Shown here: positions 39,703 to 43,637 of the stretch, piece by piece
Numbering within the stretch: position 1 is the first letter of the stretch
Layout: every line of letters begins with the position of its first letter
From: Pseudomonadota bacterium
Lineage (GTDB): Bacteria; Pseudomonadota; Gammaproteobacteria; Acidiferrobacterales; Acidiferrobacteraceae
Assembly (NCBI GenBank): GCA_021785035.1
Contig: JAJYGP010000025.1
Coordinates: 220,351-284,350 of the forward strand
DNA length: 64,000 nucleotides
Direction of reading: 5' to 3'
Notes under the pieces: model-generated
Told to the model about the DNA's origin: nothing
Seen by the model: the letters and a program-made list of their open reading frames with translations, nothing else
The model's database searches: none
Made by a program: the position numbers and the translations under genes

Positions 39703-40098
39703 ATGGATTATCAACAGGCAGAAAACCAACTGGCGGTGGTACAGCAGCAAACCCAAGCGAGCCTCCAAAAGCTTCAAGCGCTGGCCCAGAAGCTCACGGC
39801 CGCGGCCCCGGATCCGACCACCGGGCGTGAATGGGCCATGGATCTGCGGGAAGTGGCGCTGGCTGTACAGACCCAGGCCCAGAACAGCACGACGCTGGCC
39901 CAGCAAATGGCCGAGTACATCCGTCGTCTCGAAAGCGATGTAGCGACCCATCCAAGCCCCACGGTCCAACCCACGGGTTGGGCGAATCAGCCCCAGGCCG
40001 GTGGCGGGTTCTTAAGTTCCTTGACGAGCGGGCTCGGCATGGGCGCCGGCTTTGCGGTGGCGGACGACCTCGTGGGCGACCTATTTAACATGTTTTAG
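39703..40098 (+). CDS. Conserved hypothetical coiled-coil protein with Gly-rich tail
   Basis: ATG 39703 follows GAGGAAG and gives 131 residues; the track start at 39613 is too long. The N-terminal half is a Gln-rich coiled coil ([25 protein letters not shown]). The C-terminal end ([29 protein letters not shown]) resembles the glycine/alanine-rich tails of DUF2076-type proteins. Function unknown. The stop overlaps the convergent argH end by 18 bases. Confidence 0.72.
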
Positions 40099-41481
40099 CT
40101 GGGCCAGCCGTTCGTGGCCGCGGGCGACCGCGGCTCGAACCTGGCGGGGTGCCGTGCCCCCGAGATGATCGCGGGCTGCGAGCGATCCTTCCAGGGTCAG
40201 CACCGGGAAAATATCCTCCGCTATGAGAGGCGAACACGCTTTAAGGTCGGCCAGAGCGAGAGCCGAAAGGTCGACCTTTTGCTCGATGGCGAGCCGTACC
40301 GCCCGCCCGGCGGCCTCGTGAGCATCACGAAACGGCAGGCCCCGGCGCACGAGATAATCGGCAAGGTCGGTCGCTGTGGGATAGCCGCGGGTCGCCTCGA
40401 GCCGCATGCGATCCCTATGAAAGGTGGTGGTCGGCAGGAGCTCGGCAAGCGCGCGGAGTGAATCCTTTAGGGTGTCTAAAGTGTCAAAAAGCGGTTCTTT
40501 GTCTTCCTGGTTGTCTTTGTTGTAGGCCAAGGGTTGGCCTTTCATGAGGACCAAGAGGGCGGCCAAATGACCTATCACCCGGGCACTCTTGCCGCGCAAG
40601 AGCTCCGGGACGTCCGGGTTTTTCTTTTGCGGCATGATCGAGGATCCGGTGCAAAAGCCATCGGCAAGTTCGATGAAGCCAAACTGAGGCGTCGACCAGA
40701 GGACGAGTTCCTCGGCCATGCGCGACAAATGGACCATAACCAGGGCGGAGGCCGCGGTAAATTCGATTACGAAATCGCGATCGGAGACGGCATCGAGTGA
40801 GTTTTCCGCAGGGCACGAAAACCCAAGGGTACGGGCCACCATGTCCCGATCTATGGGAAAGCTTGTTCCAGCGAGAGCGCCGGCCCCGAGCGGCAGGACA
40901 TTGACGCGCTTACGGGCGTCTAGGAGGCGTTCTTGGTCGCGCAGGCTCATCTCAAACCAGGCGAGGATATGGTGGCCTAGGGTCACTGGTTGGGCGACCT
41001 GGAGGTGCGTGAAGCCGGGCATGATGGTGTCGGCCTCGCGCTCGGCGATCAATAAAAAGACCTGACCGAGCGCCTGGAGTTGGTCCAGAAGGGCGTCTAT
41101 GCCGTCACGCAGATAGAGACGCACCGTGGTGGCGACCTGATCGTTACGAGAGCGTGCGGTGTGGAGCTTTTTCCCGACCTCCCCAACGTGCTCAATGAGC
41201 GCCGCCTCGATATTCATATGGACATCTTCGCGTTCTATGGACCACGAGAAGCGGCCTTCGTCTATATCCTTTTCGACGGCAGCAAGTCCGGATACGATGG
41301 TAGCGGCCTCGTCTTGGCTTATGATGCCGACTGCGCCGAGCATGGTGGCATGGGCCTTCGAGCCCGCGATGTCGTGGCGATAGAGTCTATGGTCGAAGCT
41401 CACGGAGGCGGTAAAGGTCTCCACGAAGGCATCGGTCGGCTGGGTAAAGCGGCCTTTCCAGGCCTTCTCGGACGGGGGCAT
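40081..41481 (-). CDS. argH: Argininosuccinate lyase ArgH
   Basis: Start chosen at ATG 41481 ([17 protein letters not shown]; 466 residues), the usual N-terminus of the family; upstream starts at 41493 and 41559 lack an SD. The last step of arginine synthesis, cleaving argininosuccinate to arginine and fumarate. The signature [20 protein letters not shown] is intact, as are [19 protein letters not shown] and the His in [11 protein letters not shown]. The algZ-algR pair starts divergently 306 bases away, an arrangement seen in gammaproteobacteria. Confidence 0.96.
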
Positions 41482-41594
41482 ACGGCTTCTCATATCCAAA
41501 GGGCCCTTATAGTAACGAACCCGACGGGCCACGTTAAGCGCCGAGGGCCGTTTTGCCATTTATCCGTTGGGGGGAGCCGATCATCGGTCTTGGA

Positions 41595-41623
41595 TTGAGA
41601 CCCTACCGTCCGTCCACTAGAGT
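41595..41623 (+). promoter_or_regulatory. Sigma-70-like promoter for the candidate sRNA
   Basis: TTGAGA (41595-41600), 17 bases, TAGAGT (41618-41623). The -35 differs from TTGACA by one base and the -10 matches TATAAT at four of six. Predicted start near 41630. Confidence 0.45.
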
Positions 41624-41629
41624 AGATCT

Positions 41630-41725
41630 CGTTGTTCCTGGGCCGGACTCTCCTTATGCACCCCCACCCCGAAATACCGGCCCAGGTTGCCGGTCCCCCG
41701 AGGAAAGACTCGGGGGACGCTTTTT
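41630..41725 (+). ncRNA. Candidate structured small RNA with intrinsic terminator
   Basis: A region of about 96 bases with no ORF, upstream of algZ. Hairpin 1: CCTGGGCCGG (41637-41646) pairs perfectly with CCGGCCCAGG (41677-41686), closing a 30-base loop that contains CTCCTTATGCACCCCCACCCC. Hairpin 2: GTCCCCCGAG (41693-41702), loop GAAAGA, CTCGGGGGAC (41709-41718), then GCTTTTTC, a textbook terminator. A promoter-like element precedes it at 41595-41623. The loop holds CUCCUU, complementary to Shine-Dalgarno AAGGAG. No plus-strand gene lies upstream that this terminator could serve. It could alternatively be an attenuated leader of algZ, whose ATG is 63 bases beyond the U-run. Confidence 0.6.
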
Positions 41726-41787
41726 CCTGGTAGTCTAGAAGGACCTCCCGTCTCGGCGGGCCTCTACCTTTAAGACTTAAGGTGGCA

Positions 41788-42867
41788 ATGAAGGATCAGA
41801 CTAGCTACTTTCTGCCCGACTTCGGTTCCCTAGCAATAGCTGCCAAGATTCTCCTCTTGGCGGAGGCCATTGCGGTCATATTTACGATCGGCCTCAATAA
41901 CCATGTCGGGCCTAAGGTCGTCAAAGACTTCGTGTTTTTGTCCACCTACACCCTCACTATCGCCGTGGCAAGCCTCTTTCTCATGCGGATCGCCAATCGC
42001 GGTCTGCGCAAACTGTCGGTGATCGTGGGATCGCTCACGGTGATTGCGCTTATGCAGATTGCGATCGTGGTCGTCACGGAGCTCATGATCTTGGCTCTTT
42101 ATAAGCTGCAGCTGATCCCCAGCCGTTGGCCCGATTGGCAAATGGCCGTGCTTGCCCATAGTCTTCTGATCGGCACAATCGTGATGTTGCTCGCTTTACG
42201 GCATTTGTTTGTCTCACATAACGCGCAAATAGACGCCAAAATGGAGCAGGAGGCCCGCATTCAGGCCTTGCAGTCGCGGATTCGCCCTCACTTTTTATTT
42301 AACAGTATGAACAGCATAGCGAGCCTTACAAGAAGCGATCCGCCACGCGCCGAGGCCGCCCTCCAGGACCTCGCCGATCTTTTTCGGGTGCTGTTGGCAG
42401 ACGCCCGCAAGCTCGTCCCGATATCGGCTGAGCAAGAGATATCGCGCCAATATCTTGAGATTGAGAAGCTCCGTCTTGGGGATCGTTTACAGGTGAACTG
42501 GACTGTGAGTAATGTCCCGCGCAATGCCCTTATTCCCACCCTCACCTTGCAACCGCTCCTCGAGAACGCCATATACCATGGCATAGAGCCGCGATTCGGG
42601 GGCGGGGTTGTGAAGGTCGAGCTATGGGGCGACAACGCCGGCACGCTCAATATCTTGATCAGTAATCCGGTTCCTGAAGTCCGCAAGCATGCCCACGGAC
42701 GGGGCAATAAAATCGCCATGGACAACATTCGTCAGCGCTTGTCTTCACATTTCTTTGAAGCAGCCACTTTGCAGACGTTCGAGGAAGGCGACCAGTACCA
42801 TGTCAAAATTAAAATGCCTATTGTCAAAAATCAGGGGGATCGATACCTAGCGGAGACATCACGATGA
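41788..42867 (+). CDS. algZ: LytS/AlgZ-type sensor histidine kinase
   Basis: ATG 41788 gives 359 residues; the preceding GTG at 41782 is less likely. Five or six hydrophobic segments form an N-terminal sensor (LAIAAKILLLAEAIAVIF, LVFLSTYTLTIAVASLFL region and following), then a His_kinase domain of the LytS type: QSRIRPHFLFNSMNSIASL (His in the PHFLFN motif), DLADLFRVLL, and LQPLLENAIYHGI (N box), with the ATP site HGRGNKIAMDNIRQRL. Partner of the response regulator just downstream, overlapping by four bases at the next frame and coupled with it. Confidence 0.88.
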   Translation: MKDQTSYFLPDFGSLAIAAKILLLAEAIAVIFTIGLNNHVGPKVVKDFVFLSTYTLTIAVASLFLMRIANRGLRKLSVIVGSLTVIALMQIAIVVVTELMILALYKLQLIPSRWPDWQMAVLAHSLLIGTIVMLLALRHLFVSHNAQIDAKMEQEARIQALQSRIRPHFLFNSMNSIASLTRSDPPRAEAALQDLADLFRVLLADARKLVPISAEQEISRQYLEIEKLRLGDRLQVNWTVSNVPRNALIPTLTLQPLLENAIYHGIEPRFGGGVVKVELWGDNAGTLNILISNPVPEVRKHAHGRGNKIAMDNIRQRLSSHFFEAATLQTFEEGDQYHVKIKMPIVKNQGDRYLAETSR

Positions 42868-42905
42868 GAGAGACGGGCGTGTCAGGCGAGCAGAGGAGGG
42901 AACCT

Positions 42906-43637
42906 ATGAAGGTTTTGATTGTGGACGATGAGAAATTGGCGCGCGACCGGCTCCGGGAACTGGTTGGGGAGATTGGCGAGCACACGGTGGTGGGCGAAGC
43001 CATGAACGGCAGTGAGGCCATAGAACAAACGGAGAGACTGAACCCGGACGTCTTGCTCATGGACATACGCATGCCCGGCATGGACGGGCTTGAGGCGGCC
43101 ATGCACCTCATGGGATTGGATGCGCCCCCGGGCGTCATCTTTACGACCGCCTACGACCAGCACGCTCTGGATGCGTTTGAGGTGAACGCGGTCGATTATC
43201 TCCTGAAGCCTATTCGCAAGGACCGTCTGGCGAAGGCCTTGAGTAAGGCCGGCAAGCTGACTTTGCAGCAGCTTCAGGATTTTAACCAAGCGCAAGATAC
43301 CCCAGTGGTGCGCACCCATCTCAGCGTGCATCTACGGGGAAATATTCGCCTCGTGCCGGTACAGGACGTACTCTACTTTTTAGCCGACAACAAGTATGTG
43401 ACGGTCAGAACTGCGAGCGAAGAACATTTGATCGAGGACTCGCTTGTAAACTTGGAGCGCGAATTCGGCGAAAGCTTTTTACGGATTCACAGAAACGCCC
43501 TGGTCGCGACGCCTTATATCAGCGGCATCGAGAAGGACGGTAGCGGCACCTGGCATGTGACTTTGAAAGGCCTCGAAAAGCGTCTTGCCGTGAGCCGCCG
43601 CCACGCCGCTGCGGTGCGGAGATGGGCACGCCGCTGA
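42906..43637 (+). CDS. algR: LytTR-type response regulator AlgR
   Basis: ATG 42906 follows AGGAGGG and gives 243 residues; the track start at 42864 overlaps algZ. The receiver domain (MKVLIVDDEKLARDRL; phospho-Asp in DVLLMDIRMPGMDG; Lys in DYLLKPIRKDRL) is followed by a LytTR DNA-binding domain (LVPVQDVLYFLADNKYVTVRT; LRIHRNALVAT). It acts with AlgZ; in Pseudomonas the pair controls alginate and type IV pilus genes, and the targets here are unknown. Confidence 0.9.
   Translation: MKVLIVDDEKLARDRLRELVGEIGEHTVVGEAMNGSEAIEQTERLNPDVLLMDIRMPGMDGLEAAMHLMGLDAPPGVIFTTAYDQHALDAFEVNAVDYLLKPIRKDRLAKALSKAGKLTLQQLQDFNQAQDTPVVRTHLSVHLRGNIRLVPVQDVLYFLADNKYVTVRTASEEHLIEDSLVNLEREFGESFLRIHRNALVATPYISGIEKDGSGTWHVTLKGLEKRLAVSRRHAAAVRRWARR

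Follow-up and report, generated by a model that had tools for sequence, protein, structure and literature searches.

The C-rich loops of sX13, an sRNA of the Xanthomonadaceae (RF02232), act on mRNAs that carry G-rich motifs close to the start codon, repressing them without a need for Hfq (PMC3771888), and NmsRA and NmsRB of Neisseria act through anti-Shine-Dalgarno (anti-SD) motifs (PMC5362039). A two-component type of control is described for SpoZ of C. difficile, an sRNA activated by the VirR-like regulator RgaR via a pair of direct repeats, the key bases being −51 and −72 (PMC10602386). For the AlgZ/AlgR system of Pseudomonas, the consulted part of the literature gives CCGTTCGTC as the core bound by AlgR, with CCGTTTGTC and CCGTGCGTC also bound, and describes protein-coding promoters with scattered sites; a directly controlled sRNA beside argH does not figure in that part (PMC4064291).

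The window analysed here, a stretch of 64,000 nucleotides from a member of the Acidiferrobacteraceae, carries between argH and algZ what the initial annotation had proposed to be a trans-acting sRNA (Table 1). Genome comparisons give good support to a real sRNA gene, conserved throughout an order that comprises acid-mine bacteria and their relatives, because order-wide conservation, covariation of stem 1, a nearly invariant loop, a conserved promoter and terminator and independence from algZ all argue for it. The overall reading that we consider likely is that of a stand-alone, trans-acting sRNA of ~95 nt, activated by AlgR, whose loop would block Shine-Dalgarno (SD) or G-rich sites; within it, the gene and its independence are the parts supported by comparison, and we infer target pairing and control by AlgR. 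This regulator, whose gene lies two genes away, would bind two repeats 21 bp apart just before the −35 element and turn the gene on; the transcript would fold into one hairpin plus terminator, with CUCUCCUU and CACCCCCACCCC displayed in its 30-nt loop as two C-rich modules. These would pair with SD sites and G-rich sites close to start codons, lowering translation of several mRNAs.

Table 1. Features of the argH–algZ region (positions in the window).
Feature	Position	Strand	Basis or remark
argH, divergent neighbour	40081..41559	-	longest ORF
AlgR/LytTR-like box 1 (CCATTTATCCGT)	41556..41567	+	direct repeat, upstream of 43/43 sRNA copies
AlgR/LytTR-like box 2 (CCGATCATCGGT)	41577..41588	+	21 bp from box 1; ~-49 relative to predicted start
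-35 element TTGAGA	41595..41600	+	TTG-to-box distance constant in nearly all copies
-10 element TAGAGT	41618..41623	+	N17 after TTGAGA; conserved
Putative sRNA transcript, ~96 nt	41630..41725	+	5' end predicted from -10 spacing; conservation and fold
Stem 1, 5' arm	41637..41646	+	covarying stem
30-nt C-rich loop	41647..41676	+	nearly invariant in alignment
CUCUCCUU, anti-SD-like motif	41648..41655	+	alignment
CACCCCCACCCC, second loop motif	41659..41670	+	alignment
Stem 1, 3' arm	41677..41686	+	covarying stem, 10 perfect pairs with 5' arm
Intrinsic terminator hairpin and T run	41693..41725	+	10 pairs 41693-41718, T5 41721-41725
algZ/fimS-like sensor kinase (PF06580)	41782..42867	+	PF06580 domain
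algR-like LytTR response regulator (PF00072 + PF04397), candidate activator	42864..43637	+	domains

The promoter pair and the two perfect 10-bp hairpins, the second with a U-run and read as a terminator, had all been claimed in the initial annotation; they are present and conserved in relatives, and directly upstream the plus strand carries no gene, argH being on the minus strand. The real start of argH is probably near 41481 (41481–41559 of the window), the longest ORF beginning too early, with homologs aligning from residue 24–31. The sRNA fold had a minimum free energy of −45 kcal/mol (z = −3.62), a stability equalled by 0 of 200 shuffled sequences. By itself, the scan for promoter consensus was at the level of chance (2 found versus 1.8 expected); promoter, hairpin and terminator are credible because they are conserved across relatives.

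BLAST matches to the region (E ≤ 1, and for most well under this limit) were obtained in 57 of 60 related genomes, so the region is conserved in relatives, and the divergent argH adjoined the sRNA in every relative whose context was checked. Among the aligned RNAs the loop is nearly invariant, ACUCUCCUU..UGCACCCCCACCCCGAA, while the flanking arms vary, with arm pairs such as CCUGGGCCGG/CCGGCCCAGG, CCUGGUUCGG/CCGAACCAGG and UCCGGGCUGG/CCAGCCCGGA, among others. In stem 1, 96.7% of the cells were paired and two-sided changes occurred at seven of the ten pairs; two-sided cells numbered 37 versus 12.6 in shuffles, and the covariation score was 0.421 versus 0.228. Pairing fell to ~56% when the partner was shifted by one column. 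The terminator keeps its shape among relatives while its letters change. The C-rich 30-base loop and the CUCCUU in it, on which the anti-SD proposal had been founded, are present and conserved; the motif had been drawn too short, since conservation extends further, with the CACCCCCACCCC part no less conserved. Across the order's genomes the loop ranges from CUCCUUAUG to CUCCUUUGUG. A leader peptide (GUG/AUG CAC CCC CAC CCC ...) was rejected, because the RNAs of different genera differ in length by single bases around the loop, which puts them out of frame with one another and breaks any reading frame.

The terminator ends only ~57 nt before algZ in the window and the gene order argH–sRNA–algZ is common, which would suit a cis-acting leader or attenuator of algZ whose terminator governs read-through, the alternative entertained in the initial annotation. 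That proposal is contradicted by genomes with a distant algZ: the sRNA, with its boxes and promoter, stays beside argH both in G042, whose algZ lies on a different contig, and in G055, with algZ 324 kb away. At locus L041 some 1 kb of additional DNA lies between terminator and algZ, the distance between the two is very variable among genomes, and most argH–algZ gaps of the class have no such element. Because the sRNA stays with argH where algZ is elsewhere, an algZ leader is untenable and we regard it as very improbable. Least probable of all is a functional minus strand forming a structured 5' leader of argH: a TATACT-like motif does lie beyond the sRNA in some genomes of family f7, but the T run and the conserved −35/−10 pair suit the plus strand only, and an argH-like promoter motif is found between argH and the boxes at L020 and L057. 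Between terminator and algZ, a palindromic AAGTATACTT-like motif occurs ~90 nt after the loop in f7 (L019, L029, L045, L052 and L053), possibly an algZ promoter or operator. Directly beside the first kinase gene, a second, more distant AlgZ-like one was found in G018, G023, G042 and G055.

The stand-alone sRNA has an upstream feature that the initial annotation overlooked, an AlgR-like double box that links it to the adjacent two-component system. It consists of two direct repeats, CC(G/A)NYY(A/G)TCSG, 21 bp apart and at a constant distance before the −35 box; the fuller consensus is CC(G/A)(C/T)(T/C)(T/C)(A/G)TCCGT followed by CCG(A/G)(T/C)(C/T)(A/G)TCGGT. All 43 distinct sRNA copies scored at least 11/12 at spacing 21 (34 strict), with no enrichment at other spacings and none in shuffles, and the double box was found in 0 of 54 argH–algZ gaps that carry no sRNA. 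A search with the strict pattern returned one match each in 17 of 21 relatives, 15 of them at the sRNA, and 0 with the reversed control. The match in G018 is beside argH, where the contig breaks. The match in G024 (L201, C2:94452) falls within a fimT/fimU-like pseudopilin ORF whose 5' part holds four CCGTTTRTC boxes, recalling the way AlgR controls minor pilins in Pseudomonas.

The distance from the boxes to the −35 element is fixed, whereas that from promoter to stem differs by family, and the boxes are therefore most likely part of the sRNA promoter. For a start near 41630 their centres lie at ~−49 and ~−70, a geometry close to the −51/−72 of RgaR and SpoZ, whose repeats are also 21 bp apart; the RNA is unrelated, and RgaR has several other direct targets. 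The conserved box letters are largely those common to CCGTTCGTC, CCGTTTGTC and CCGTGCGTC; a degenerate match to the Pseudomonas core stands, as a pair, upstream of the sRNA, and the adjacent response regulator, of the same type of two-component system, has a LytTR domain. The paired boxes thus probably belong to the neighbouring AlgZ/AlgR system, with AlgR controlling the sRNA.

Another regulator might instead bind the double box of a real sRNA, or the box might serve argH. This would accord with Pseudomonas AlgR sites, which are not described as 21-bp pairs (PMC4064291); known LytTR repeats are moreover often ~12 bp apart, which counts against AlgR. It is nonetheless unlikely in our view, given the agreement of the box core letters with the AlgR core, the LytTR regulator encoded next door, the constant distance of the boxes to the sRNA promoter against a variable promoter-to-stem distance, and their absence from the gaps that lack the sRNA. 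A further point against AlgR is G020, in which the boxes are present and a match to algZ is absent at 1e-20, although the contig ends within the sRNA. Under AlgR control, the hypothesis offered for AlgZR is that the response regulator's only strict double site per genome would be the promoter of the adjacent sRNA.

The absence of a known family, as initially claimed, was borne out: Rfam 15, searched at E ≤ 5 and E ≤ 1, assigned neither the window nor its homologs to a family, weak matches being driven by the terminator, and no argH–algZ sRNA was found in the literature searched. The sRNA shares with sX13 a highly structured form and a C-rich loop; sX13, however, has three C-rich hairpins and lies downstream of polA (PMC3771888), whereas here one C-rich hairpin with a long two-module loop is followed by a terminator, beside argH. 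Neither window nor homologs had any match to the sX13 model; the sole one, at L064, had 27.4 bits against a gathering score of 50 and is not taken as an ortholog. NmsRA and NmsRB share an anti-SD, UC-rich loop and the occurrence of tandem siblings, as in family f64 (PMC5362039), and differ in having three stem-loops, at another locus in another organism. Among Rfam families, some relatives came closest, below threshold, to anti-hemB (RF02837; at best 28.5 bits, at L044, against a gathering score of 49.5, with no match in the window), and this similarity was mostly in the terminator, the loops not corresponding. As judged by comparative sequence, the sRNA has a free-standing gene with its own promoter and terminator, and its covarying stem bears a conserved loop of C-rich or CUCC type. 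In kind it resembles the anti-SD sRNAs with C-rich loops, although it belongs to neither sX13 nor any other listed family, and like them it may repress mRNAs by pairing with start regions.

In the loop, CUCUCCUU resembles the 3' end of 16S rRNA, and the loop may mimic the ribosome's SD-binding tail. It could alternatively be a protein-binding site, a sponge or decoy for an RNA-binding protein. Its conservation exceeds the need of a multi-target seed, and sponge sRNAs driven by two-component systems are known, as with GacA and RsmY/RsmZ; on the other hand, the resemblance of CUCUCCUU to 16S rRNA fits pairing better, and the repeated conserved GGA motifs of CsrA sponges are absent from the loops of the alignment, for which reason a CsrA/RsmA sponge of the RsmY/RsmZ type was rejected. 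A protein-binding loop is accordingly judged doubtful.

Candidate targets of a pairing loop were ranked among 386 start regions, from ~464 kb of the window's genome, which also has hfq. The start region of csrA is predicted to pair with both loop modules at −30.6 kcal/mol, placing it in the best 1.3% of the 386, and csrA is one of 13 sites of the form AAGGAGAG-N2-9-ATG in this genome, versus 5 for the reversed pattern. A pilG/H-like gene has the same SD but ranks at 52%. In the order, csrA leaders gave −26.1 with real versus −23.3 with shuffled loops, and in genomes without the sRNA −19.6 versus −19.4; they pair better in the order (−26.1 and −23.0 versus −19.6), a difference much of which shuffled loops reproduce, much of the csrA signal being G-richness. 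For start regions generally, the real loop was not more complementary than shuffled loops (−17.6 versus −18.1), and no perfect 12-nt target was found elsewhere in the genome. From these predictions csrA is a weak lead as a target. The wider proposal that in the order AlgZ/AlgR acts chiefly via the sRNA, on many SD sites including that of csrA mRNA, and so would reach the CsrA network through csrA mRNA and not through sponge RNAs, is speculative and seems rather improbable.

Upstream of argH, no sRNA was detected at E ≤ 5 in 80 other class genomes. The divergent argH–algZ pair was present in 54 of 80 sampled genomes of the class, as a rule closely spaced and lacking this RNA in the gap; these distributions indicate that the gene pair is older than the sRNA. 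A covariance model built from the order's sRNAs matched 15 of 369 class genomes. Weak matches at engB, ruvB and other loci (L059, L061, L063–L066) were not accepted as orthologs, as they have no double box; together with L062, these are other RNAs made of a C-rich-loop hairpin and a terminator, likewise devoid of the box. The same kind of locus was found in named records labelled Acidiferrobacter, Acidiferrobacteraceae and Acidiferrobacterales. The sRNA would be an unlisted family in a little-studied order of acidophiles and their relatives. Besides members of the order, the covariance model recovered distant relatives elsewhere in the class: family f116 is represented by one genome with one copy, likewise between argH and algZ, and in family f64 two tandem copies lie between these genes (L056, L058, L060 and L068). 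The tandem copies and the wider distribution in the class offer material on the origin of anti-SD sRNAs. Each of the f64 siblings has a separate 21-bp double box upstream.
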